A stretch of 64,000 nt of DNA from an uncultured Paracoccus sp. (GTDB taxonomy: Bacteria > Pseudomonadota > Alphaproteobacteria > Rhodobacterales > Rhodobacteraceae): assembly GCF_947496875.1 (NCBI RefSeq), contig NZ_CANMEH010000004.1, positions 124,001 to 188,000 of the forward strand. Reading direction: 5' to 3'. Below the pieces are notes generated by a model, which saw nothing but the letters and a program-made list of their open reading frames with translations, did not search any database and was not told the origin of the DNA. Positions 6,476 to 19,631 of this stretch are shown one piece after another (within the stretch, counting starts at the first letter, position 1; the number at the start of each line of letters is the position of its first letter). The position numbers were made by a program, and so were the translations under genes.

Positions 6476-7993
6476 TCAGCCGCGCAGGTCACCCTCCAGT
6501 ATGTAGTCGGGCAGGTTCTGGAAGCATACCGGCCGCAGAAAACGCCGGATCGACAGGGTGCCGACGCTGGTCGCGCCGAAATTGGTCGAGGCGGGATAGG
6601 GTCCGCCATGGACCATCGCGTCCGCCACCTCGACCCCGGTCGGAAAGCCGTTGACCAGAACCCGGCCCGCCTTCTGCGCCAGAACCGGCAGCAGCCGCCG
6701 CGCCAGCGCGGCGTCGGCTTCGTCGCTGTGCAGCGTCGCGGTCAGCTGGCCCGGAAAGCCGCGGGCGATGCGCAGCATCTCGTCGGGCGTGCCGGCCCGG
6801 ACGATCAGGCCAGCCGGACCGAACACCTCTTCGGTGAGGCTGTCTTCGCCCAGGAACTCATCGGCCGTGGTCTCGTACAGGTTGGGCCCCGCGCTCCGAT
6901 CGCTGCTGTCGGTGTTCAGGACGGGCTTGACCGCGTTGGACTGGCCCAGTCGGTCGATCCCTTCACGATAGGCGGATGCGATCCCGTCAGTCAGCATCGT
7001 CTGCGGCGCCGCATCGGCAAGGGCGCGGCGCGCGGCGTCCACCACCCTGTCGGCGTCGGGACCGTCCAGCACCACGGCGATGCCCGGATTGGTGCAGAAC
7101 TGCCCTGCCCCCATCGTCAGCGATCCGGCCCAGCCGGTGCCGATCTCGTCGGCGCGCGCCGCGGCGGCGGCCGGCAGGACGAACATCGGGTTCACCGAGC
7201 CCAGTTCGCCGAAGAAGGGGATCGGTTCGGGGCGCGCGGCGCACAGGTCGAACAGCGCCCGTCCGCCGGCAAGACTGCCGGTAAAGCCCACGGCCTTGAT
7301 GCGGGGATCGGTGACCAGCGCCTCGCCGACCTTGCGGTTGCCGCCCTGGATCAGGGCGAACACCCCTGGTGGCATGCCGGTGCGCGCGATGGCGGCCTTG
7401 ATCGCCTCGGCCACGATCTCGCCGGTGCCGGGATGGGCGGAATGGCCCTTGACCACCACCGGACAACCGGCGGCCAGCGCCGCGGCCGTGTCGCCACCGG
7501 CCGTCGAAAACGCCAGCGGAAAGTTCGAGGCGCCGAACACGGCGACCGGACCGACGGGCAGCTGGATCATCCGCAGTTCGGGTCGGGCGGCGGGCTGGCG
7601 GTCGGGCAGCGCCGTGTCGATCCGGCGGTCGAGATAGTCGCCCTTGCGGATATGGTCCGCGAACAGGCGCAGCTGGCCTGTGGTGCGCCCCCGCTCGCCC
7701 TGCAGTCGCGCTTCGGGCAGCCCGGTTTCCTGGGTGCCGATCTCGGTGATGGCATCGGCACGCGCGTCGATCTCGTCGGCGATCGCCTCCAGAAACGCGG
7801 CGCGCGCCTCACGCGAGGTCGCGGCGTAATCGTCGAACGCGTCGGCCGCCGCCGCACAGGCCCGCGCCACCAGGTCCGGCGTACCGGCTGCATAATTATG
7901 GGCCGGTCCATGCGCGGGCGACGACCGGAAGGTCGCGTCGCCCCCGATCCATTCCCCGCCGATCAGGTGCTTGCCGTGAGGTGTGAAGGTCAT
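6476..7993 (-). CDS. Aldehyde dehydrogenase, probable 2-oxoglutarate semialdehyde dehydrogenase
   Basis: NAD(P)-dependent aldehyde dehydrogenase of 505 residues. Visible landmarks are the cofactor region VVVKGHSAHPGTGEIVAEAI, the general-base Glu in FFGELGSVNPMF and the nucleophilic Cys in GAGQFCTNPG. GEWIGGDATFRSSPAHGP at the start and VCFQNLPDYIL at the end are typical of 2,5-dioxovalerate (alpha-ketoglutarate semialdehyde) dehydrogenases that finish oxidative pentose and hexarate pathways. The FAH-family and DapA-family genes just upstream would make that substrate. It has its own 96-base upstream gap containing a probable GntR operator at 8061-8072. Confidence 0.88.
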   Translation of the reverse strand: MTFTPHGKHLIGGEWIGGDATFRSSPAHGPAHNYAAGTPDLVARACAAAADAFDDYAATSREARAAFLEAIADEIDARADAITEIGTQETGLPEARLQGERGRTTGQLRLFADHIRKGDYLDRRIDTALPDRQPAARPELRMIQLPVGPVAVFGASNFPLAFSTAGGDTAAALAAGCPVVVKGHSAHPGTGEIVAEAIKAAIARTGMPPGVFALIQGGNRKVGEALVTDPRIKAVGFTGSLAGGRALFDLCAARPEPIPFFGELGSVNPMFVLPAAAAARADEIGTGWAGSLTMGAGQFCTNPGIAVVLDGPDADRVVDAARRALADAAPQTMLTDGIASAYREGIDRLGQSNAVKPVLNTDSSDRSAGPNLYETTADEFLGEDSLTEEVFGPAGLIVRAGTPDEMLRIARGFPGQLTATLHSDEADAALARRLLPVLAQKAGRVLVNGFPTGVEVADAMVHGGPYPASTNFGATSVGTLSIRRFLRPVCFQNLPDYILEGDLRG

Positions 7994-8060
7994 GACGTGC
8001 CCTTTCGCGATTGCGCCGACTGCCGGCGAGACATGGACGCTGCGCCCGGACGAGTCAAAT

Positions 8061-8072
8061 CTGGTATGCCAG
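8061..8072. promoter_or_regulatory. Probable GntR operator upstream of the aldehyde dehydrogenase gene
   Basis: CTGGTATGCCAG differs by one base from the perfect palindrome CTGGTATACCAG at 10248. It lies in the 96-base gap before the leftward aldehyde dehydrogenase gene, 68 bases from its start. Its recurrence only in promoter gaps of this cluster makes it a likely site for the clustered GntR regulator. Confidence 0.6.
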
Positions 8073-8089
8073 GTTGATCCCGGGCGGCA

Positions 8090-9232
8090 TCACGCCAGCA
8101 GCCCCCGCCCTGCCAGGCTGCGCATCAGCGCGGCCGTGCCGAACGTCCAGGACGGGCAGTCGGTGCACGACCGGACGGTGTTGGTCAGCGCCCCCAGCGC
8201 CGGTTCCCGGATCGTGACGATGTCGCCGGGATGATGGGTAAAGCCCTGCCCCGGCGCGTCGCGGTCCTGGGTGGGTGCGAACAGCGTGCCGAGATACAGC
8301 ATGAACCCGTCCGGATACTGGTGATGCCGGCCGATCGCCTGCGCCACCAGATCGGCGGGGTCGCGGCTGATCTGCGACATCGAGGACCGCCCGTCCAGCA
8401 CGAAGCCGTCGGTCCCTTCGACCCGCAGCGTCAGTTCGGCGGCGCGCACCTGGTCCAGCCCCCACTCGGCATCGAACATCCGGATGAAGGGGCCGATCGC
8501 GGCCGAGGCGTTGTTGTCCTTGGCCTTGCCCAGCAGCAGGGCGGATCGCCCCTCGACGTCGCGCAGGTTGACGTCGTTGCCCAGCGTGGCGCCGCGGACC
8601 CGGCCGCTGCTGTCCACCGCCAGCACGATTTCCGGTTCGGGGTTGTTCCAGCGGCTGATCGGATGCAGGCCGACATCCGCCCCCCAGCCCACCGACGCCA
8701 TCGGCTGGCACTTGGTGAAGATCTCGGCGTCGGGGCCGATCCCAACCTCGAGATACTGGGACCACAGCCCCTCCGACTTGAGGATGCGGGCGACCTCGGC
8801 GGCCCGGTCCGAGCCGGGCACGATGCCGCGCAGGTTGGCGCCGATCGCCTCGCCGATGCGGGCGCGGATGGCGGCGGCCTGATCGGGATCGCCCGCCGCC
8901 TGCTCCTCGATCACCCGTTCCACCATCGACGCGGCAAAGGTCACGCCGCTGGCCTTGATCGCCTGCAGGTCGGCAGGGGACAGCAGCCGCGGATCATTCC
9001 CGCCCGCCCCCATGACGGCGAAATCCGACAGCGATCCGATGTCTGCGCCCCGCTGCGCCTGCAACCACCCCACGGGGTCATCGCGTTCCAGCAGGTCGCG
9101 CATCGTCGTGACTTCGGGGCAGGTCACGTCCAGCAGCCGTCCGTCCCGGTGAACCACCACGGCCGGGCCGATGTCGGGCCGCCACACCCGACCGACAAAG
9201 ACGCCCTCGTCCGGCAGATCCGGTTGCGGCAT
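8090..9232 (-). CDS. Fumarylacetoacetate hydrolase-family protein, probable 2-keto-3-deoxy-aldonate dehydratase
   Basis: A 380-residue FAH-fold protein. The C-terminal half carries NNPEPEIVLAVDSSG (a metal-binding Glu-X-Glu) and GATLGNDVNLRDVEG, then LLLGKAKDNNASAAIGPFI. This arrangement is shared with 2-keto-3-deoxy-pentonate dehydratases of the XylX/KdaD type, which yield 2-oxoglutarate semialdehyde in Weimberg-type pentose oxidation. The downstream aldehyde dehydrogenase fits that step. Its start is one base from the end of the DapA-family gene, so the two form one operon. The exact stereoisomer is unknown. Confidence 0.8.
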   Translation of the reverse strand: MPQPDLPDEGVFVGRVWRPDIGPAVVVHRDGRLLDVTCPEVTTMRDLLERDDPVGWLQAQRGADIGSLSDFAVMGAGGNDPRLLSPADLQAIKASGVTFAASMVERVIEEQAAGDPDQAAAIRARIGEAIGANLRGIVPGSDRAAEVARILKSEGLWSQYLEVGIGPDAEIFTKCQPMASVGWGADVGLHPISRWNNPEPEIVLAVDSSGRVRGATLGNDVNLRDVEGRSALLLGKAKDNNASAAIGPFIRMFDAEWGLDQVRAAELTLRVEGTDGFVLDGRSSMSQISRDPADLVAQAIGRHHQYPDGFMLYLGTLFAPTQDRDAPGQGFTHHPGDIVTIREPALGALTNTVRSCTDCPSWTFGTAALMRSLAGRGLLA

Positions 9233-9233
9233 C

Positions 9234-10145
9234 CTAATTCCCCCAGCGCAGGACGAGCGGATCGAGCCGCCTCGCCAGTTCGACGGTCATCGCGCGCGTC
9301 GCCGGATGCAGCGGCGCGATCGGATGGCGGCAGTATTCGGATGCGATCACGCCGCCTTCCTTCATCAGCACCTTGGCGGCGCGGAACCCGGCCTGCCGGT
9401 TCTCGTGATTCACGAAGGGCAGCACCCGGGCATAGGCATCGGTCGCGCCAGCCCGGTCACCGGCGGCCCACAGGTCCAGCACCGGCCTGATCTGGTCCAC
9501 GATGGAGGCCGAGGTCATCGACCCCGTCGCCCCCGCGTCCAGGTCGGCCAGCAGGGTGATGGCCTCTTCGCCGTCCATCGGTGCCTCGATCGCATCGCCG
9601 CCCTCGGCGATGAGGGCGCGCAGCTTGGCCGCGGCCTGCGGGCACTCGATCTTGAACAGCTTCACCATCTCGATCTCGCGGGCCATCCGGACCAGCAGCG
9701 CAACCGGCAGATCGACCCCGGACAGCGGCGCGTCCTGGACCATGATCGGAATCCCGACCTCACCCACGGCGCGGAACTGTTCGAAGGTCTGCTCGGCGGT
9801 GCCGCGCATCAGGGCGCCGTGATAGGGCGGCATCATCATCACGGCCGCGGCGCCCAGGTCCCGGGCCCGCTGCGCGCGTGACACGGCGATCGCGGTCGCG
9901 AAATGGCTGATGGTGACAATGACCGGAACCCGGCCCGCCACATGTTCGAGCGACAGCCGGGCCAGCGTCTCGCGCTCGTCATCCGACAGCAGGAACTGTT
10001 CCGAAAAGTTTGCCAGGATACAGATGCCGGTCGAACCCTGGTCGATCATGCAGTCGAGAACCCGGCGCATGCCCTCGGTATCGATCGCCCCGTCCGGATG
10101 GAACGGCGTCGGCGCGACCGGCCAGATCCCCTCATATCCCGGCAT
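9234..10145 (-). CDS. Dihydrodipicolinate synthase-family aldolase/dehydratase
   Basis: A 303-residue (beta/alpha)8 barrel of the DapA/NAL family, starting MPGYEGIWPVAPTPFHPDGA. The Schiff-base lysine is probably in MVKLFKIEC and the active-site tyrosine in MMPPYHGALMRG. Members act as 2-keto-3-deoxy-sugar-acid dehydratases (arabonate or glucarate type) or as aldolases. ATG 10145 is preferred over the upstream ATG at 10187 because a GGGGGGAA ribosome site precedes it and the upstream ATG lies inside the operator palindrome. It leads a leftward operon with the FAH-family gene. Confidence 0.85.
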   Translation of the reverse strand: MPGYEGIWPVAPTPFHPDGAIDTEGMRRVLDCMIDQGSTGICILANFSEQFLLSDDERETLARLSLEHVAGRVPVIVTISHFATAIAVSRAQRARDLGAAAVMMMPPYHGALMRGTAEQTFEQFRAVGEVGIPIMVQDAPLSGVDLPVALLVRMAREIEMVKLFKIECPQAAAKLRALIAEGGDAIEAPMDGEEAITLLADLDAGATGSMTSASIVDQIRPVLDLWAAGDRAGATDAYARVLPFVNHENRQAGFRAAKVLMKEGGVIASEYCRHPIAPLHPATRAMTVELARRLDPLVLRWGN

Positions 10146-10175
10146 GCCATTCCCCCCTGCTGAGTAACCCAGCGG

Positions 10176-10187
10176 ATGGTATACCAT
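10176..10187. promoter_or_regulatory. Probable GntR operator, copy 1 in divergent promoter
   Basis: ATGGTATACCAT is a perfect 12-base palindrome, 31 bases upstream of the DapA-family start. The TGGTATACCA core matches the GT...AC pattern bound by GntR/FadR-type regulators. A second copy lies 72 bases away, centre to centre, on the side of the IlvD-family gene. Confidence 0.72.
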
Positions 10188-10247
10188 TCCCGTCGTGCTG
10201 CAAGACAGCGGCCGCGCACCGGGCAGAGCTTTACAGCTTCCGCGTGG

Positions 10248-10259
10248 CTGGTATACCAG
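10248..10259. promoter_or_regulatory. Probable GntR operator, copy 2 in divergent promoter
   Basis: CTGGTATACCAG, a perfect 12-base palindrome, ends 29 bases before the ATG of the IlvD-family dehydratase. Together with copy 1 it brackets the divergent promoter region, a placement suited to repression of both operons. The gntR gene is the last gene of the rightward operon. Confidence 0.72.
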
Positions 10260-10288
10260 ACCACGCAGGTCATGCAGGGGGGGTGGGG

Positions 10289-12070
10289 ATGTCCGACACG
10301 CGCGCCAACAAGCGGTTTCGCAGCCAGGAATGGTTCGACAACCCGAACAACCCGGGCATCACTGCGCTGTACCTGGAACGCTACCAGAACCAGGAATACA
10401 CGCGCGAGGAACTGCAGGGTGAGCGGCCGGTGATCGGGATTGCCCAGACCGGCAGCGACATCGCCCCCTGCAACAAGATCCACGTGTTCCTGATGGACCG
10501 GATCAAGGCGGGTATCCGCGACGGCGGCGGTATCCCGATGGAATTTCCCGTCCATCCGATCCAGGAGACCGGCAAGCGGCCCACCGCCGCGCTGGACCGT
10601 AACCTGGCCTATCTGTCACTGGTCGAAGTGCTGCACGGCTATCCGATCGACGGCGTGGTCCTGACCACCGGCTGCGACAAGACCACACCGGCCATGCTGA
10701 TGGGCGCGGCAACGGTCGACCTGCCGGCGATCACCCTGAATGGCGGGCCGATGCTGGACGGCTGGTGGCAGGGCAAGCGCGCCGGGTCCGGCACGATCGT
10801 CTGGGAAAGCCGCCGGCTGCTGGCCGAGGGCAAGATCGACTACGACGAGTTCATCAGCCGGGTCTGCGCCTCTGCCCCCAGCCTGGGGCATTGCAACACG
10901 ATGGGCACCGCCAGCACGATGAATGCCATGGCCGAGGCGCTGGGCATGTCGCTGCCCGGCTGTTCGGCGATTCCGGCGCCGTTCCGCGAACGGATGGCGA
11001 TGGCCTATCAGACCGGCAAGCGCATCGTGCAGATGGTGCTGGACGACCTGAAGCCCAGCGATGTGCTGAGCCGGGCCGCGTTCGAGAACGCGATCCGCGT
11101 CAACACCGCGATCGGCGGGTCCACCAACGCCCCGCCGCATCTGCAGGCGATCGCCCGCCACGCCGGTGTCGAACTGGACGTGCGCGACTGGGAAACCGTC
11201 GGTTTCGACCTGCCGCTGCTGGTGAACATGCAGCCGGCCGGCCAGTATCTCGGCGAAAGCTTCTTCCGCGCCGGTGGCGTCGCCGCGGTCATGGGCGAGC
11301 TGCAGCAGGCCGGTCTGCTGAACGACGACGCGATGACGGTCACCGGCCGCACCGCCGGCGAAAATGTCGCCGAATGGCGCTCCACCGATCACGACGTGAT
11401 CCGCCCCGTCGGCAATCCGTTGCGCGAAAAGGCCGGGTTCCTGGTGCTGTCCGGCAACCTGTTCGACAGCGCGCTGATGAAGACCAGCGTGATCTCCGAC
11501 GATTTTCGCCGGCGCTTCCTCTCCGATCCCGGCAACGAGGGGGTTCACGAAGGCCGCGCCATCGTGTTCGAGGGACCCGAGGACTATCATGACCGGATCA
11601 ACGATCCGGCCCTGGGCATCGACGAGCAGTGCATCCTGTTCATCCGGAATGTCGGCTGCGTCGGCTATCCCGGCAGCGCCGAGGTGGTGAACATGCAGCC
11701 GCCCGACGCGCTGCTGAAGGCCGGAATCAATCACATGCCCACGGTAGGCGACGGACGGCAGTCCGGCACCTCGGAAAGCCCGTCCATCCTGAACGCCAGC
11801 CCCGAGGCGGCGGTCGGCGGCGGGCTTGCCCTGCTGCAGACCGGCGACCGGGTGCGGCTGGACCTCAATGCACGGCGTATGGACGCGCTGGTCGACGACG
11901 CCGAATGGCAGGCGCGACGCGCCGCCTGGACCCCGCCCGAACTGGTCAACCAGACGCCGTGGCAGGAACTGTATCGCCGCACCGTCGGCCAGCTGGCGGA
12001 CGGGGGCTGTCTGGAACTTGCCACCGCCTATCACCGCGTCGCCCGCGACCTGCCGCGCGACAATCACTAG
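10289..12070 (+). CDS. IlvD/Edd-family sugar-acid dehydratase (xylonate/arabonate type)
   Basis: Iron-sulfur-dependent dehydratase of 593 residues, converting an aldonate to its 2-keto-3-deoxy acid. Conserved cysteine motifs are SDIAPCNKIH, TTGCDKTTPAMLMGA and LGHCNTMGTASTMNAMAE, the likely cluster ligands. The opening RFRSQEWFDNPNNPGITALYLER and the overall length fit the pentonate dehydratase branch (XylD or L-arabonate dehydratase), not the biosynthetic IlvD. ATG 10289 follows a G-rich site; the frame is open further upstream but that runs through the operator region. First gene of a five-gene rightward operon. Confidence 0.88.
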   Translation: MSDTRANKRFRSQEWFDNPNNPGITALYLERYQNQEYTREELQGERPVIGIAQTGSDIAPCNKIHVFLMDRIKAGIRDGGGIPMEFPVHPIQETGKRPTAALDRNLAYLSLVEVLHGYPIDGVVLTTGCDKTTPAMLMGAATVDLPAITLNGGPMLDGWWQGKRAGSGTIVWESRRLLAEGKIDYDEFISRVCASAPSLGHCNTMGTASTMNAMAEALGMSLPGCSAIPAPFRERMAMAYQTGKRIVQMVLDDLKPSDVLSRAAFENAIRVNTAIGGSTNAPPHLQAIARHAGVELDVRDWETVGFDLPLLVNMQPAGQYLGESFFRAGGVAAVMGELQQAGLLNDDAMTVTGRTAGENVAEWRSTDHDVIRPVGNPLREKAGFLVLSGNLFDSALMKTSVISDDFRRRFLSDPGNEGVHEGRAIVFEGPEDYHDRINDPALGIDEQCILFIRNVGCVGYPGSAEVVNMQPPDALLKAGINHMPTVGDGRQSGTSESPSILNASPEAAVGGGLALLQTGDRVRLDLNARRMDALVDDAEWQARRAAWTPPELVNQTPWQELYRRTVGQLADGGCLELATAYHRVARDLPRDNH

Positions 12071-12104: not shown

Positions 12105-12839
12105 ATGCCAGGATCCATCATCATCACCGGGGCGGGCAGCGGCATCGGCCGCGTCACCGCCCGGACATTCCTGCAGGCCGGCTGGCGGGTCGGGCTGATC
12201 GGCCGGCGTGCCGACGCGCTGAACGAGACCGCGGGTGACAGCGGCGCGCTGGTCCTGCCCTGCAACGTCACCGACGCGGCCGCCGTCGACGCCGCGTTCG
12301 ACCGGACCGCGGCAGAGTGGGGCCGGGTGGACGTGCTTTTCAACAACGCCGGAACCGGGCTGGTCACCCAGACACCGGATCAGGTCGATCCGGACGAGTT
12401 CCGCCGGGTGATCGACGTGAACGTCAACGGCGTGTTCAACGCGGCGCGCGCGGCGTTCCGGGTCATGCGCGCCCAGGACCCGCAGGGCGGACGGATCATC
12501 AACAACGGTTCGGTGTCGGCCCACGCGCCGCGCCCCGGCTCGATCGCCTACACGGCGTCCAAGCATGCGGTCACCGGGATCACCCGGTCGCTGTCGCTGG
12601 ACGGGCGGCCGTTCAACATCGCCTGCGGCCAGATCGACATCGGCAACGCCCTGACCGAAATGGCCGAGGCGATGACGCGGGGGGTGCCGCAGGCCGATGG
12701 TTCGAACCGGATCGAGCCGGTGATGGACGCCCAGGTGGTCGCCGATGCCGTCCTGCACATGGCCAGCCTGCCGGAGGGCGCGAACGTCCAGTTCATCACG
12801 GTGATGGCGACCAACATGCCCTTTGTCGGACGGGGCTGA
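12105..12839 (+). CDS. SDR-family oxidoreductase
   Basis: Short-chain dehydrogenase of 244 residues. The NAD(P)-binding motif TGAGSGIG is at residues about 8-15, NNAG near 83 and the catalytic YxxxK in YTASKHA near 150, preceded by the SVS serine. It has the FITVMATNMPFVGRG ending found in a subgroup beside sugar-acid genes. It probably oxidises a sugar or a keto-sugar acid in the pathway of the preceding dehydratase; substrate unknown. ATG 12105 follows AAAGGGGG, 34 bases after the dehydratase stop. Confidence 0.82.
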   Translation: MPGSIIITGAGSGIGRVTARTFLQAGWRVGLIGRRADALNETAGDSGALVLPCNVTDAAAVDAAFDRTAAEWGRVDVLFNNAGTGLVTQTPDQVDPDEFRRVIDVNVNGVFNAARAAFRVMRAQDPQGGRIINNGSVSAHAPRPGSIAYTASKHAVTGITRSLSLDGRPFNIACGQIDIGNALTEMAEAMTRGVPQADGSNRIEPVMDAQVVADAVLHMASLPEGANVQFITVMATNMPFVGRG

Positions 12840-12842
12840 GGC

Positions 12843-13610
12843 GTGTCGCTGGCCCTGTTCGACCTGAGCGGCCGCCGCGCCCTGATCACCGGGTCGTCCC
12901 AGGGGATCGGCCTGGCGCTGGCCGGCGGCCTGGCCGCCGCCGGGGCCACCATCCTGCTGAACGGCCGCGATCCCGCCCGGCTGGAGGCGGCCGCGACACG
13001 GCTGCGCGAGGGTGGCGCCGACGTCGAGCTTCATCCGTTCGACGTCACCGATCATGCCGCGGTCCGCACCGCGGTGGACCGGATCGAGGCGACGACCGGG
13101 CCGATCGACATCCTGATCAACAACGCCGGCATGCAGCACCGCGCGCCGCTGGAGGATTTCCCGCCCGAGGCGTTCCAGCAGATGCTGCAGACCAACATCG
13201 CCAGCGTGTTCAACGTGGCGCAGGCCGTCGCCCGTCACATGATCCCGCGCGGGAAGGGCAAGATCGTCAACATCTGTTCGGTCCAGACTGCGCTGGCGCG
13301 GCCCGGGATCGCGCCCTACACCGCGACGAAGGGCGCGGTAGCCAACCTGACCAAGGGCATGGCCACCGACTGGGCCCGTCACGGGCTACAGTGCAACGGC
13401 CTGGCGCCCGGCTATTTCGACACGCCGCTGAACGCCGCGCTGGTCGCCGACCCGGCGTTTTCCGACTGGCTGGCCCGCCGCACCCCGGCCGGGCGCTGGG
13501 GCCGGGTCGAGGAACTGGTCGGCGCCGCGATCTTTCTGTCCTCGGCCGCGTCGTCGTTCGTCAACGGGACGACGCTCTACGTGGACGGCGGGATCACCGC
13601 ATCACTTTGA
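12843..13610 (+). CDS. SDR-family oxidoreductase, gluconate 5-dehydrogenase-like
   Basis: Short-chain dehydrogenase of 255 residues with a GTG start three bases after the previous stop. It shows TGSSQGIG near residue 17, NNAG near 95, SVQTALARPG before the catalytic YTATKGA (near 160), and the C-terminal DGGITASL. LFDLSGRRALITGSSQGIG at the start and HRAPLEDFP resemble gluconate 5-dehydrogenase (IdnO/Gno), which interconverts aldonates and 5-ketoaldonates. The second SDR in the operon suggests that the pathway includes a redox isomerisation of the acid. Confidence 0.83.
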   Translation: MSLALFDLSGRRALITGSSQGIGLALAGGLAAAGATILLNGRDPARLEAAATRLREGGADVELHPFDVTDHAAVRTAVDRIEATTGPIDILINNAGMQHRAPLEDFPPEAFQQMLQTNIASVFNVAQAVARHMIPRGKGKIVNICSVQTALARPGIAPYTATKGAVANLTKGMATDWARHGLQCNGLAPGYFDTPLNAALVADPAFSDWLARRTPAGRWGRVEELVGAAIFLSSAASSFVNGTTLYVDGGITASL

Positions 13611-13633: not shown

Positions 13634-14611
13634 ATGACCCGGGTTCTGGCGATCGGCATTTATGCAGACATCGATCACACCGCACTGGTCGAGGAAGAGG
13701 GGGCTGCGATGCTGGCGACCCTGGATGATCTGGCAGGGATGCCGCAGGCGGACCGGGACAGGATCGAGGCCGTGGCCTATCGGGGGCACGCCCCCTTCGG
13801 CCCGGACCAGATGGCGTTGCTGCCACGGCTGCGGGTGATCGCCAACAACGGCGTGGGTTATGACGCGATCGACGTTGCCGCCGCGACGGAACGGGGCATT
13901 GTCGTCACCAACACGCCGGGCGTGCTGAACGACGACGTGGCGGATCTTGCCGTCGCGATGCTGGTCGCCCAGAGCCGCGATTTCGAGCGCGGGATGCGCG
14001 CGGTGCGCGATGGCAGCTGGGCGCAGACCGGCGAGTTGCCGCTGGCCCGCAAGCTGTCCGGTCGCACCGTCGGCATTCTGGGGATGGGCCGGATCGGACG
14101 CGAGATCGCCGACCGGCTGGTCGCGTTCAAGTGCAGGATCCATTACCAGTCCCGTACGCCCAAGGACACGCCCGCCGGGTGGACCTACCATGCAGATCCC
14201 GTCGATCTGGCGCGTGGAGTCGACGATCTGGTGGTGTCGGTCGTCGGCGGGCCGGCCACCGAAGGGATGGTGTCGGCCCGGGTGCTGGACGCGCTGGGGC
14301 CGGACGGCGTGCTGGTCAACATCTCGCGCGGATCGGTCGTGGACGAGGCGGCGCTGATCGAGGCGCTGGAACAGGGCCGGATTCGCGGCGCGGCGCTGGA
14401 CGTGTTCCGCAACGAGCCCGATGTCGATCCGCGCCTGGCGCGGCTGCCGAACCTGCTGCCGCTGCCGCATGTCGGATCGGCCACCGTCGAGACCCGCGCG
14501 GCGATGGGCGCGCTGCAGCGGCGCAACCTGCGCGCCATGCTGGAGGGCCATGCCCCCGAAACCCCGGTCAACGATCCGGCGGCCGTGGTCCGGCAAGCCG
14601 CCGGCGGATGA
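13634..14611 (+). CDS. D-2-hydroxyacid dehydrogenase (glyoxylate/hydroxypyruvate reductase-like)
   Basis: NAD(P)-dependent 2-hydroxyacid dehydrogenase of 325 residues. The Rossmann motif is GILGMGRIGREIA (about 145-157). Catalytic residues are the Arg in NISRGSVVDE, Glu in FRNEPDVDP and His in PHVGSAT. Close relatives reduce glyoxylate or hydroxypyruvate or act on 2-keto sugar acids. In this operon it could remove glyoxylate or another two-carbon product if the keto-deoxy acid is cleaved by an aldolase. The start at 13634 follows GGGAGG. Its stop overlaps the gntR start by ATGA. Confidence 0.87.
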   Translation: MTRVLAIGIYADIDHTALVEEEGAAMLATLDDLAGMPQADRDRIEAVAYRGHAPFGPDQMALLPRLRVIANNGVGYDAIDVAAATERGIVVTNTPGVLNDDVADLAVAMLVAQSRDFERGMRAVRDGSWAQTGELPLARKLSGRTVGILGMGRIGREIADRLVAFKCRIHYQSRTPKDTPAGWTYHADPVDLARGVDDLVVSVVGGPATEGMVSARVLDALGPDGVLVNISRGSVVDEAALIEALEQGRIRGAALDVFRNEPDVDPRLARLPNLLPLPHVGSATVETRAAMGALQRRNLRAMLEGHAPETPVNDPAAVVRQAAGG

Positions 14612-15318
14612 CCGGCAGGGCGGGCCGCGGGGACAGCAGCCGCGGCCGCGAAACCGCGACCACCTATCCCGGGACGATCGCCGCGCAGTTGCGGCGCGAG
14701 ATCCTGACCGGCGTGCTGCCGCCCGGCAGCCCCATCAAGGAACGCGACCACGCCGAACGGCTGGGGGTCAGCCGCACCCCGCTGCGCGAGGCCGTGCGGA
14801 TGCTGGCGAAGGAAGGTCTCGTCACCCTGCGCCCGCTGCGCAGCCCCACGGTCATCGACATGACCCTGGACGAGGCGCTGGACGAGGTCGCGGTGCTGCG
14901 GCAGCTGGAACTGTTCGGCGGCGAACTCGCCTGCCGCAACGCCACCCCGGAGGAGATCGTCGCCATCCGCCGCCTGTGCGAGACCATCGAGGCCGATCAC
15001 GCCAGCGGCGACAAGGTCGAGGTGTTCGACGCCGACATGCAGATGCACCGGGCCATCGTCGCCGCCTCGCACAACCCGGCCCTGACCCGCACCCATGGCG
15101 AATATCTGTCGCGGCTGTGGCGCATCCGGTTCCTGTCCGCCCGGGAACGCACCGACGCCATGCGCGTGCTGGCCGACCACCGCGGCATCGTGCGGGCGCT
15201 GGAATCCCGCGACGCCGCTGCAATGCGCCGGCACATGGAATCACATCTGGACGGTCTGGTCAGGAACCTGACGCGGCAGATGAGCCCGGCCGAGGAAACG
15301 GATCAGCCCCGCGGCTGA
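14608..15318 (+). CDS. GntR-family regulator with FCD domain
   Basis: A 236-residue repressor-type regulator of the FadR subfamily. The winged helix lies at about residues 20-88 (AERLGVSRTPLREAVRMLAKEGLV). The effector-binding FCD domain fills the rest, with likely metal-binding residues in FDADMQMHRAIV and the His of DHRGIV and MRRHMESHL. Such proteins usually sense a pathway organic acid. It is the last gene of the IlvD operon, overlapping the previous gene by four bases. The three GGTATACC-type palindromes in the cluster are its probable operators. Confidence 0.9.
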   Translation: MTGRAGRGDSSRGRETATTYPGTIAAQLRREILTGVLPPGSPIKERDHAERLGVSRTPLREAVRMLAKEGLVTLRPLRSPTVIDMTLDEALDEVAVLRQLELFGGELACRNATPEEIVAIRRLCETIEADHASGDKVEVFDADMQMHRAIVAASHNPALTRTHGEYLSRLWRIRFLSARERTDAMRVLADHRGIVRALESRDAAAMRRHMESHLDGLVRNLTRQMSPAEETDQPRG

Positions 15319-16212: not shown

Positions 16213-17709
16213 CTACATCACCGCCCCGATCTGCCACGGCACGAATTCGTAGTCGCCCAGGTCCTGGGCCTCGGACTTGGACCGCTCGCCCGAGGCGACC
16301 CGCAGCAGCAGCTCATAGATCTCGCGCCCCACCTCCTCGACGCTCGCCGCGCCGTTCAGGATCCGGCCGGCATCGACATCCATGTCGTCGCGCATGCGGG
16401 CAAACATCTCGGAGTTGGTGGCGATCTTGATGCACGGCGAGGGCTTGGACCCGAAGGCCGATCCCCGGCCGGTCGTGAACGCCACCAGATTGCAGCCCGA
16501 GGCGATCTGCCCGGTGACGCTGGCCGGGTCATAGCCGGGGCTGTCCATGAAGGTGAAGCCGCGCCCCGTCACCGGCTCGGCATAGCGGAACACACCGTTC
16601 AGCGGCGTGGTCCCGCCCTTGGCCGCGGCCCCCAGGGATTTTTCCAGGATCGTGGTCAGCCCACCCTTCTTGTTGCCGGGGCTGGGATTGTTGTCCATGC
16701 TGCCGCGATTGCGGGCGGCATAATCCTCCCACCAGGCGATCAGCTCCAGCAGCTTGTCGCCCACATCGGGACGGGCGGCGCGCGCGGTCAGCAGATGTTC
16801 CGCCCCGTAGATTTCCGGCGTTTCCGCCAGAACGCCGGTTCCGCCCTGCGCCACCAGCAGGTCGCAGGCATGCCCCAGCGCGGGGTTGGCGGTGATCCCC
16901 GACCAGGCGTCCGACCCGCCGCATTGCAGTGCCACCATCAGGTCCGACGCCGGGCAGTCCTCGCGCGTGGCGGCGTTGACCACCGGTAGCATCTCCTCGA
17001 CCTTGCGGATCCCCAGCGCCACGGTTCGCGCCAGCCCCCCGACATCCTGGATGTTCATGGCCTGGAACAGCGGACCGGGGGTCAGGCCATAGGCCTCGAT
17101 CAGCCAGTCGATCTGCATCATCTCGCAGCCCAGCCCCGCCATCAGCACCCCGCCGACGTTGGGGTTGCGGGCATAGCCCCACAGCGTGCGCTGCAAGGTC
17201 TCGAACCCGGTCCCGTCGCCCCCCATGGCACATCCCGTCCCGTGCACGAAGGCGGTCACCCCGTCGACGTTGGGATAGGCGGCCAGCCGCTCGGCGGTGA
17301 AATGATCGGCGATCTTGCGGGCCGCGGTCGCCGAACAGTTCACCGAGGTCAGGATGGCGATGAAGTTGCGCGTGCCCACCGCGCCATTCGCGCGCCGGTA
17401 GCCCCTGAAGCTGTCGCGGCGGGCAGGCGCCGGCGCCGGCCGCAGGTTGGACCCGTAGCTGTGCGCATGGGCCAGGTTGCGGAATTCCACGTTGTGGGTG
17501 TGGACATGGTCCCCCGCGGCAATGTCCGTCGAGGCCCAGCCGATCACCTGGGCGTATTTCACGACGGTCTCTCCCGTCGCGATGGCCTGCCGGGCGATCT
17601 TGTGCCCCCGCGGGATCGTCTGGTTGGCACCCTGCTCACCAACGTTCAGGGTGGCCGTGACCGTTGCGACATTGTCGGACGGATCAAGCGTGACGAGCCG
17701 GGCGGTCAT
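16213..17709 (-). CDS. UxaA-family altronate/galactarate-type dehydratase
   Basis: Dehydratase of 498 residues with both UxaA parts: an N-terminal SAF domain (about 10-90, with GHKIARQAIATGETVVKYAQ) and the large C-terminal domain (from about 105, GYRRANGAVGTRNFIAILTSVNCSA). Conserved features include HGTGCAMGG, GLGCEMMQ, ALQCGGSDAWSGITANPALG and EIYGAEHLL. The family dehydrates altronate, galactarate or related acids to 2-keto-3-deoxy acids. It is divergent from the SDR plus FAH pair at 17975-19631, which would accept such a product. It may therefore act on a deoxy-sugar acid; that is inference. Confidence 0.88.
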   Translation of the reverse strand: MTARLVTLDPSDNVATVTATLNVGEQGANQTIPRGHKIARQAIATGETVVKYAQVIGWASTDIAAGDHVHTHNVEFRNLAHAHSYGSNLRPAPAPARRDSFRGYRRANGAVGTRNFIAILTSVNCSATAARKIADHFTAERLAAYPNVDGVTAFVHGTGCAMGGDGTGFETLQRTLWGYARNPNVGGVLMAGLGCEMMQIDWLIEAYGLTPGPLFQAMNIQDVGGLARTVALGIRKVEEMLPVVNAATREDCPASDLMVALQCGGSDAWSGITANPALGHACDLLVAQGGTGVLAETPEIYGAEHLLTARAARPDVGDKLLELIAWWEDYAARNRGSMDNNPSPGNKKGGLTTILEKSLGAAAKGGTTPLNGVFRYAEPVTGRGFTFMDSPGYDPASVTGQIASGCNLVAFTTGRGSAFGSKPSPCIKIATNSEMFARMRDDMDVDAGRILNGAASVEEVGREIYELLLRVASGERSKSEAQDLGDYEFVPWQIGAVM

Positions 17710-17974
17710 GACGCGGGCGACCCGGGCAGGCCCGTGGGCCGGACCTGCTGACCATCAAGGAAGACTGGCCTTGTCGCCATCGTTTCGACCCCGAACAGAA
17801 AGGCTGTGTGCAGGTCGCACGCTAGGGTAAGGTCCACATGCCCGCAATGCCGATCTGGGCCCCGGACGAACCCGTGGTCGCGGGCCCGACCGGCAAATCG
17901 GCTTGCGACAGAATATCCTTTCGGCGCAGCCTGTCACCCGGCAGGCCGCAGCACCGGCGGCAGGGGGGAAACAC

Positions 17975-18724
17975 ATGGCGGGACGGCTTTCGGGCAAGCG
18001 GATCATGATCACGGCCGCAGGTCAGGGGATGGGCCGCGCCGCGGCACTCGCCTGCGCGGCCGAAGGGGCAGAGGTGCTGGCCACCGACCGCGATCCCGGG
18101 CTGCTGTCCGACTTGTCCGCATCGGGTCTGACCACGGCGCAGCTGGACGTCACCGATGCAGATGCCGTGGCACGGGTCGGCGCAGGGGCGGGCGATCTCG
18201 ACGGCCTCTTCAACTGCGCGGGGGTCGTCGTGAACGGTGACATCCTCGACTGCACCCAGGCCGACTGGGACACGAGCTTTGCGATCAACATCCACGCGAT
18301 GTTCCACGTCACGCGCGCGGTGCTGCCAGGCATGCTGCGGCAGGCCGACCGGACCGGCGCGGCGTCCATCGTCAACATGGCCTCGATGGCGTCCAGCGTG
18401 AAGGGATTCGTGAACCGCTGTGCCTACGGCACGACGAAGGCGGCGGTGATCGGGCTGACGAAATCCGTCGCCGCCGATTTCGTCCAGCGCGGTCTGCGCG
18501 CCAACGCGTTGTGCCCCGGCACGGTGGACACGCCCAGCCTGCGCGAGCGCATCGCCGGCGCACCCGACCCGGCCCAGGCGGAACGCGACTTTGTCGCGCG
18601 CCAGCCGATGGGGCGCCTTGCAGTGGTGGACGACATCGCCCCGATGGTGGTTTATCTGCTGTCCGACGAAAGCCGCTTCATGACTGGCCAGGCGGTTCTG
18701 GTCGATGGCGGCGTGACGATCTGA
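17975..18724 (+). CDS. SDR, 2-keto-3-deoxy-L-fuconate dehydrogenase-like
   Basis: A 249-residue short-chain dehydrogenase. ITAAGQGMGRA at the N-terminus, FNCAGVV, MASSVKGFVNRCAYGTTKAAV with the catalytic YxxxK, and CPGTVDTPSLRERI closely parallel mammalian DHRS6/BDH2 and bacterial 2-keto-3-deoxy-L-fuconate dehydrogenases. It would oxidise C4 of a 2-keto-3-deoxy sugar acid to the 2,4-diketo compound. The FAH-family hydrolase 55 bases downstream fits the next step. ATG 17975 follows AGGGGGGAA; an in-frame ATG at 17903 lacks such a site. Confidence 0.85.
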   Translation: MAGRLSGKRIMITAAGQGMGRAAALACAAEGAEVLATDRDPGLLSDLSASGLTTAQLDVTDADAVARVGAGAGDLDGLFNCAGVVVNGDILDCTQADWDTSFAINIHAMFHVTRAVLPGMLRQADRTGAASIVNMASMASSVKGFVNRCAYGTTKAAVIGLTKSVAADFVQRGLRANALCPGTVDTPSLRERIAGAPDPAQAERDFVARQPMGRLAVVDDIAPMVVYLLSDESRFMTGQAVLVDGGVTI

Positions 18725-18779
18725 CGGCTGGCCCGGCCAACCCGCGCCCCGGCCTCCGTCGCCTTGTGAAGGAGCGAGA

Positions 18780-19631
18780 ATGAAACTGCTGCGCTATGGC
18801 CCGCAAGGGCAGGAGAAACCCGGCCTGCTGGACGATCAGGGCCGGGTCCGGGACCTGTCCGGCCACGTCCCCGACATTGCCGGGGACGCCCTGACCCCGG
18901 CGGGGCTGGACCGGTTGCGCGGGCTGGACCCGGCAGATCTGCCGCTGGTCGATGGCACGCCGCAGCAGGGGCTGCGCCTGGGTGCCTGCGTGGGGAACGT
19001 GCGCAAGTTCGTCGCGATCGGGCTGAACTATGCCGATCACGCGGCGGAATCCGGGATGCCGGTCCCGTCCGAACCGGTCGTCTTCAACAAGTGGACCAGC
19101 TGCATCGTCGGCCCCGATGATGACGTGCACATTCCGCGGGGCGCCACCAAGACCGACTGGGAGGTCGAATTGGGCGTCGTGATCGGCGCACCGGCCCGGG
19201 ACGTGCCGGAGGACCGGGCCATGGACCACGTCGCCGGCTATTGCGTGGTCAATGACGTCAGCGAACGGGAATGGCAGCTGGAACGGACGGCCACCTGGGA
19301 CAAGGGCAAGGGCTTCGACACCTTCGGGCCGATCGGTCCGTGGCTGGTCACGGCCGACGACATCCCCGACCCGCAGGACCTGGACCTCTGGCTGGAGGTG
19401 GACGGCCGCCGCTACCAGGACGGAACGACCCGCACGATGGTGTTCGGGGTGGCGGCCCTGGTCAGCTATTGCTCGCGGCTGATGACGCTGCTGCCCGGCG
19501 ACGTGATCACGACCGGAACCCCGCCGGGCGTCGGCATGGGGCAGAAGCCGCCGGTCTTCCTAAAGGGCGGCGAGACGATGCGGCTGGGCATCAGCGGCCT
19601 GGGCGAACAGACCCAGAAGGTCGTGGCCTGA
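18780..19631 (+). CDS. FAH-family hydrolase, 2,4-diketo-3-deoxy-L-fuconate hydrolase-like
   Basis: A 283-residue FAH-fold enzyme: KFVAIGLNYADHAAESGMP near residue 78, the metal-binding DWEVELGVVIG near 123, and KGKGFDTFGPIGPWLVTADD near 175. The group includes 2,4-diketo-3-deoxy-L-fuconate hydrolase (products pyruvate and L-lactate) and proteins annotated ureidoglycolate lyase. Pairing with the DHRS6-like SDR favours the diketo-acid role. GGAG precedes the ATG at 18780. Same operon as the SDR. Confidence 0.85.
   Translation: MKLLRYGPQGQEKPGLLDDQGRVRDLSGHVPDIAGDALTPAGLDRLRGLDPADLPLVDGTPQQGLRLGACVGNVRKFVAIGLNYADHAAESGMPVPSEPVVFNKWTSCIVGPDDDVHIPRGATKTDWEVELGVVIGAPARDVPEDRAMDHVAGYCVVNDVSEREWQLERTATWDKGKGFDTFGPIGPWLVTADDIPDPQDLDLWLEVDGRRYQDGTTRTMVFGVAALVSYCSRLMTLLPGDVITTGTPPGVGMGQKPPVFLKGGETMRLGISGLGEQTQKVVA

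Follow-up and report, generated by a model that had tools for sequence, protein, structure and literature searches.

Palindromic sites at a divergent pentonate-type gene cluster of an uncultured Paracoccus and a GntR/FCD protein predicted to bind them

The subject of this analysis is a set of palindromic sites in a sugar-acid gene cluster of an uncultured Paracoccus sp. (assembly GCF_947496875.1). The window, i.e., the whole stretch of DNA that was analyzed, comprises 64,000 nucleotides (contig NZ_CANMEH010000004.1, positions 124,001 to 188,000), and positions given without a contig or locus label are window positions. Two exact copies of the 10-base core TGGTATACCA lie between two divergent operons, and a weaker site, one base off the exact core, precedes an aldehyde dehydrogenase (ALDH) gene. 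The protein predicted to bind them, designated GntR-A, is encoded by the last gene of the rightward operon. The genes and sites are as follows:

6476–7993, minus strand: aldehyde dehydrogenase (Pfam Aldedh), candidate alpha-ketoglutaric semialdehyde dehydrogenase
8061–8072, no strand: candidate operator 3, CTGGTATGCCAG, with core TGGTATGCCA at 8062–8071; center 73.5 bp upstream of the ALDH start codon
8090–9232, minus strand: FAH-family protein, candidate D-2-keto-3-deoxypentonate dehydratase (PDB 9kkt, an FAH-family structure, 415 bits)
9234–10145, minus strand: DapA (DHDPS)-family protein, L-2-keto-3-deoxyarabonate dehydratase-like (PDB 7c0c and 3fkk, 369 bits, residues 2–302 of 303)
10176–10187, no strand: predicted operator 1, ATGGTATACCAT, with core TGGTATACCA at 10177–10186; center 36.5 bp upstream of the DapA-family start codon
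10248–10259, no strand: predicted operator 2, CTGGTATACCAG, with core TGGTATACCA at 10249–10258; center 35.5 bp upstream of the IlvD-family start codon
10289–12070, plus strand: IlvD/Edd-family sugar-acid dehydratase (PDB 5oyn, 857 bits; galactonate dehydratase 7m3k, 827 bits; L-arabinonate dehydratase 9evv, 502 bits)
12105–12839, plus strand: SDR dehydrogenase 1
12843–13610, plus strand: SDR dehydrogenase 2 (passed subfamily model NF005711; gluconate 5-dehydrogenase model under its cut-off)
13634–14611, plus strand: D-2-hydroxyacid dehydrogenase family (no NCBIfam model reaching its cut-off)
14608–15318, plus strand: GntR-A, GntR/FCD transcription factor (Pfam GntR and FCD), last gene of the IlvD operon

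The original prediction had described these three sites, and the 12-mers were found to start at 10176, 10248, and 8061. The divergent gap is 143 bp long, from the DapA-family start codon (10145, minus strand) to the IlvD-family start codon (10289, plus strand), and it does contain the two perfect copies, 72 bp apart center to center, with each copy about 36 bp ahead of its own start codon. The longest open reading frame (ORF) of the DapA gene (9234–10187) begins with an ATG within the operator; the start was placed at 10145 because the alignment with L-2-keto-3-deoxyarabonate dehydratase begins at residue 2 of the 303-residue form. The ALDH site lies in a 96-bp gap behind the FAH-family gene. 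Searching the window for TGGTATRCCA with at most one mismatch gave 8 strand-counted matches, compared with a mean of 1.93 and a maximum of 7 in 100 shuffles. When the window was scored with a weight matrix made from the sites of other genomes, the three sites ranked 1 to 3 (21.5, 17.0, and 13.2 bits), and the next best place scored 0.7. The top matrix score in 20 simulated windows was 17.7 bits (mean of the maxima, 4.6); therefore, one site by itself is unremarkable. The gaps examined before tctC, uxaA, and dgoK contained no site at two or fewer mismatches, in agreement with the absence of copies claimed for those genes.

GntR-A scored 57.3 bits with the Pfam GntR model (cut-off 27) and 95.4 bits with the FCD model (cut-off 24.3). 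Its gene shares its first 4 bp with the tail of the 2-hydroxyacid dehydrogenase gene and was therefore taken as the end of the rightward operon. In an alignment of 25 GntR-A rows R46, R56, D143, H147, H191, and H213 were invariant, and the last four line up with the aspartate and histidines of 3sxy and 3fms. A conserved Asp and three His form the metal site of FCD domains. The core, TGGT-AT-ACCA, consists of TKGT/ACMA boxes with 2 nt between GT and AC, which agrees with the claimed FadR-type pattern, since operators of that subfamily have GT and AC 2–3 nt apart. In these features and in having an FCD regulator, the set resembles the FadR-subfamily operators with 2-nt spacing (UxuR, HypR, PrpR, and GntR groups) described in the excerpted text of Suvorova et al. 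(2015; PMC4494728), in which GT-N2-AC is a minority class given for UxuR, HypR, PrpR, and others. Two known identities for GntR-A were rejected: the E. coli UxuR equivalog (NF007588; 51.1 bits vs. a cut-off of 442) and a PhnR-type regulator (TIGR03338; 97.0 bits vs. a cut-off of 271.5). GntR-A thus differs from UxuR in failing the NCBIfam Uxu regulator model, and it also has other targets. The genome has 15 FCD matches, and the nearest named GntR-A, that of Paracoccus halophilus, is 69% identical.

In the complete assembly (3,946,491 bases in 112 contigs), TGGTATACCA occurred exactly five times and its reversed control not once; TGGTATGCCA occurred once, at the ALDH site, and its control had 2 matches, counted by strand. 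Of the five exact copies, the window holds two, another two are on its contig at a distance of 93 kb, and contig 17 has the last. The first distant copy is centered 34 bp before a 6-phosphogluconate/3-hydroxyisobutyrate dehydrogenase-family gene (Pfam NAD_binding_2, 139.6 bits; NAD_binding_11, 54.6 bits; no NCBIfam equivalog reaching its cut-off). This hydroxyacid-dehydrogenase-like gene and a D-erythronate dehydrogenase-like gene (NF043036, 391 bits; cut-off 325) are oriented divergently. The second distant copy lies about 72–76 bp before an SMP-30/gluconolactonase-like gene. In the genome scan that had been proposed as a check, exact copies of TGGTATACCA thus outnumbered those of its control (5 vs. 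0), with two copies 93 kb off and one on another contig. The claim that copies lie only in the promoter gaps of the window's operons held for the window and not for the genome, where three of the five exact copies are elsewhere. A regulon limited to those operons is not supported, given the two distant copies, which stand before other genes and next to a second GntR/FCD gene, gntR-B. Eleven one-mismatch places outside the window are unlikely to be further operators of this set, since most of them (7/11) fell in stop-to-stop frames that a crude test marked as high in GC3.

Two of these eleven one-mismatch cores, at C6:12060 and C15:47758, are no more than 300 bp away from other FCD matches and are perhaps the own operators of those regulators. 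Likewise, perfect palindromes of other sequence, built on a GTATAC core (TTCTGTATACAGAA, TAATGTATACATTA), precede paralogous FCD regulators of loci L164, L176, and L178 and are perhaps their operators.

The distribution of the motif was compared with that of GntR-A in 149 genomes of the family, this one included. GntR-A orthologs, defined as matches of more than 140 bits with at least 41% identity (the next best genome had 38% and 127 bits), were present in 27 of the 149. These 27 genomes contained 115 exact copies, a mean of 4.26, compared with 105 copies in the other 122, a mean of 0.86; the excess was significant with our own genome left out (p 5e-12). The reversed pattern gave means of 1.44 and 1.81, respectively. 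In 28 named ortholog loci (at least 43% identity to GntR-A), the exact core was present in 25 loci, with 51 copies, whereas each of the 29 other palindromes of the same half-site letters had 0–2 copies. Fifty-two named paralog loci, most of which span the same length, had the core nine times, in 5 loci. In a 130-row tree the GntR-A clade comprised 56 rows (support 100/98), 47 of them with the motif in the locus, vs. 6 among the other 74 rows, some of whose loci are shorter. The motif's co-occurrence with GntR-A across genomes and in the ortholog loci thus supports the prediction that the binder is the FadR-type GntR/FCD protein whose gene closes the rightward operon. Orthologs L070 (genome G088) and L081 (G089) have one in-frame TGA in the matched stretch and may be broken genes or alignment-edge effects.

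In 35 of 53 ortholog loci, the 300 bp ahead of the gntR-A match contained an exact copy. At least two copies were present there in 24 of the 35 loci, and 21 of these 24 pairs were spaced 55–58 bp apart. Because 55–58 bp is no whole number of helical turns, no conclusion was drawn about helical phasing.

The target side was tested by searching for an exact copy within 400 bp upstream of homologs in genomes with and without GntR-A. Among the 29 best IlvD matches beside our own, a copy was found for 16 of 17 in GntR-A genomes and for none of 12 in the others (p 2.5e-7). Three more matches, none with a copy (G125 with GntR-A; G004 and G054 without), brought these values to 16/18 and 0/14. IlvD and GntR-A are on different contigs in, for example, G005, G056, and G027. 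The IlvD homologs are somewhat closer in GntR-A genomes (78–90% vs. 72–85% identity); therefore, these cases are not independent, and shared descent adds to the figure. The conservation of the sites and their linkage to GntR-A and to IlvD are direct results of these comparisons, and on the same basis IlvD is the predicted core target. The site before the hydroxyacid-dehydrogenase-like gene gains weight from three loci: L073 has an exact copy in the same divergent arrangement as the distant dehydrogenase-like pair, and in L118 and L069 more distant homologs of the dehydrogenase-like gene have one.

Sites were also present in the IlvD/DapA gap of four congeneric loci. The spacing between copies is 72 bp in our genome, 85 bp in P. 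halophilus, and 54 bp in both P. yeei and P. laeviglucosivorans; congener G023 has a shorter gap and a single copy. In these five gaps only, copy spacing seems to grow with gap length. The excerpted text of Suvorova et al. describes such growth for divergons whose two sites act separately, one per operon, and near-constant spacing for co-operative pairs (PMC4494728). By this comparison the IlvD/DapA gap resembles their "separate double site" class of divergon, with each site near its own operon, and the pairs upstream of gntR-A in other genera, with their near-constant spacing, resemble the co-operative pairs. In four congeners (G023, P. halophilus, P. yeei, and P. laeviglucosivorans), DapA is followed by the genes for GntR-B and for the D-erythronate dehydrogenase-like protein; in G023 these two genes and an SDR gene form one gene run behind DapA and FAH. 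Given this joined layout, the two clusters of our genome look like one regulon split in two.

We consider it probable, at roughly 86%, that the palindromes are GntR-A operators through which the divergent Weimberg-type operons are repressed until a sugar acid relieves the repression. A GntR-A dimer would bind each TGGTATACCA palindrome. Each site of the divergent gap, about 36 bp before its own start codon, would probably block its own promoter, so that the IlvD-SDR-SDR-hydroxyacid dehydrogenase-gntR operon would be repressed on one side and the DapA-FAH operon on the other. Because gntR-A lies in the IlvD operon, GntR-A would also repress itself. It would be released once a carboxylate occupies the FCD pocket, and this ligand would probably be a pentonate or a 2-keto-3-deoxypentonate. 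The enzymes would form a Weimberg-type route, in which IlvD converts pentonate to 2-keto-3-deoxypentonate, the DapA-type (for L) and FAH-type (for D) enzymes convert this to alpha-ketoglutaric semialdehyde, and ALDH converts the semialdehyde to alpha-ketoglutarate. The regulon would probably take in the separate gene group 93 kb away. We infer repression with release by a sugar acid from the positions of the operators, the Asp and three His of the FCD domain, and the known FadR-type repressors that respond to sugar acids.

Several observations weigh against this proposal. No exact copy was found in the locus for 9 of the 56 GntR-A clade rows, and the core is also present in a separate four-row clade of Halomonadaceae/Burkholderia regulators and in one Pandoraea locus. 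A simple scan of positions 7950–10320 recognized no sigma-70 promoter (and no terminator), so that any promoter overlap of the operators is judged from distances only. An exact copy preceded ALDH in 1 of the 28 homologs examined in GntR-A genomes (1/12 + 0/16) and in 0 of 17 in other genomes, and in congener G023 no exact or one-mismatch copy was found within 400 bp before ALDH. For gluconolactonase the corresponding values were 0/2 and 0/8. We therefore rejected ALDH and gluconolactonase as conserved targets; judged from these homologs, they are at best lineage-specific targets. The ALDH site gains a little weight from exact copies before ALDH homologs near GntR-A in L119 and L131. The predicted three-site operator set is accordingly upheld for the two exact copies in the IlvD/DapA gap, and support for conservation of the ALDH site as an operator is poor.

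Other adverse observations bear on whether the palindromes are unrelated to GntR-A, a matter of chance or of a general motif. A 10-base site of this composition would be expected about 0.8 times per such genome by our estimate, and with at most one mismatch the motif was found at 17 places (the 5 exact ones included) and the reversed control at 41, so that such counts are informative for exact copies only. At 25.8 bits, the fifth exact copy (C17:30914; L008:6915, region L008:6914–11019) outscores the other genome copies scored with the matrix, and it has no plausible target or sugar-acid link. It lies just past an ORF stop and before two genes, the first for an AAA_15/OLD-TOPRIM protein and the second for a UvrD helicase, a pair that we take to be Gabija-like, and genes for TraG and VirB11-type conjugation proteins adjoin; this copy is probably due to chance. 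For the set as a whole, the IlvD result (16/18 vs. 0/14) contradicts a chance origin, which was rejected on account of conservation and of the co-occurrence of motif and GntR-A across genomes, loci, and tree; we regard it as hardly credible.

The location of gntR-B in the distant cluster (G000, this genome, C4:225229–225600, minus strand), less than 1.5 kb from one exact copy, also counts against GntR-A as the sole binder. GntR-B might be the main binder, or both paralogs might act by competition or as mixed dimers, so that the same TGGTATACCA sites would integrate the signals of two FCD sensors, perhaps D- and L-pentonate or erythronate. In the four congeners named above, gntR-B belongs to the gene run that starts at the same divergent gap, and family genomes with GntR-B only have 1.27 copies, compared with 0.77 in genomes with neither regulator (p 0.015). 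Set against this, 19 genomes with GntR-A and without a close GntR-B still have a mean of 4.53 copies, and none of 28 loci of GntR-B homologs from other genera had the core within about 1.5 kb, a count that leaves out further, weaker GntR-B matches and in which the loci, at 2.6–3.7 kb, offer a smaller search space than the GntR-A loci. The 0/28 result disfavors GntR-B as the main binder, and we consider its involvement unlikely. If it were true, a Rhodobacterales-wide pentonate regulator would share its operator with a paralog encoded from the same divergent gap in Paracoccus. Activation or dual regulation by GntR-A, in place of simple repression, is doubtful to a like degree. FadR itself both activates and represses, and the ALDH and gluconolactonase sites, about 72–76 bp before the start codon, are at a possible activator position. 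The sites of the divergent gap, however, are about 36 bp before their start codons (33–53 bp in congeners), which suits repression, and the FadR-type sugar-acid regulators DgoR, ExuR, and UxuR are described as repressors in the part of PMC12288454 that treats them.

The predicted pentonate-type character of the enzymes was supported by the structure matches of IlvD, DapA, and FAH. By sequence, the cluster has an IlvD/Edd sugar-acid dehydratase and putative 2-keto-3-deoxypentonate (KDP) dehydratases of the DHDPS type (for L) and the FAH type (for D), as in Weimberg-type routes. IlvD scored 548.5 bits with the L-arabinonate dehydratase model NF009559, under the cut-off of 882. Its best structure match, 5oyn, is presumably the Caulobacter xylonate enzyme; the database record itself reads IlvD/Edd family. 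NCBIfam places ALDH in its superfamily only, every model match listed being far under its cut-off (for example, GucD model, 91 bits, cut-off 770; 2,5-dioxovalerate model, 111.5 bits, cut-off 750). L-specific KDP dehydratases are annotated as DHDPS family and D-specific ones as FAH family in the excerpted text of PMC7374468, and the adjoining genes of both types suggest that the cluster serves both D- and L-pentonates. A further gene group (16213–19631) adjoins GntR-A and contains UxaA-family dehydratase, SDR, and 2,4-didehydro-3-deoxy-L-rhamnonate hydrolase-like genes, the last under cut-off, and no operators; its homologs sit close to GntR-A in many ortholog loci. The hydrolase type is that of "Route III" as excerpted from PMC6336799.

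Caulobacter XylR is a LacI-type regulator, and the Caulobacter xyl and Azospirillum L-arabinose clusters are Weimberg clusters. Our cluster is like them in having an IlvD-type dehydratase, a DHDPS-family L-KdpD, an FAH-family D-KdpD, and an ALDH (enzymes as given in the excerpts of PMC7374468); it is unlike them in that both dehydratase types are consecutive and the regulator is of the FCD type. The nearest parallels in regulation are two predictions in Halomonas, taken from the relevant portions of PMC5507952. AraR2, a predicted GntR-family L-arabinonate regulator, is predicted to control an araD-containing operon, araE, and a lactonase gene. Likened by these described targets, GntR-A would be similar in logic, a single GntR-type regulator that controls both pentonate dehydration and a lactonase; the transporter type differs, that of AraR2 being TRAP. 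GguR, a predicted galactarate/glucarate regulator with TctABC, is similar in its GntR family, aldarate genes, and Tct transporter. The Halomonadaceae loci L154, L172, and L181 contain a TctA homolog and the core motif, and their regulator may be GguR. Unlike GntR-A, these candidates form a clade apart, and the pathway of GguR differs.

In literature searches, none of the matches listed for TGGTATACCA concerned bacterial regulators by title, and no paper combining GGTATACC with GntR was found. Among the matches listed, no title or abstract start concerned GntR-A; a listing in RegPrecise, a supplement, or a subscription paper is possible. The predicted operator set is real and conserved, with good support for GntR-A as its regulator; it is new for GntR-A as far as the literature search goes, and ordinary in kind. 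For the family, the result pairs an FCD regulator of 27 of 149 genomes with an operator and with IlvD as the predicted core target, a testable assignment for those genomes, and the pair of operator and GntR protein could serve as a pentonate-responsive biosensor in Weimberg-pathway engineering.

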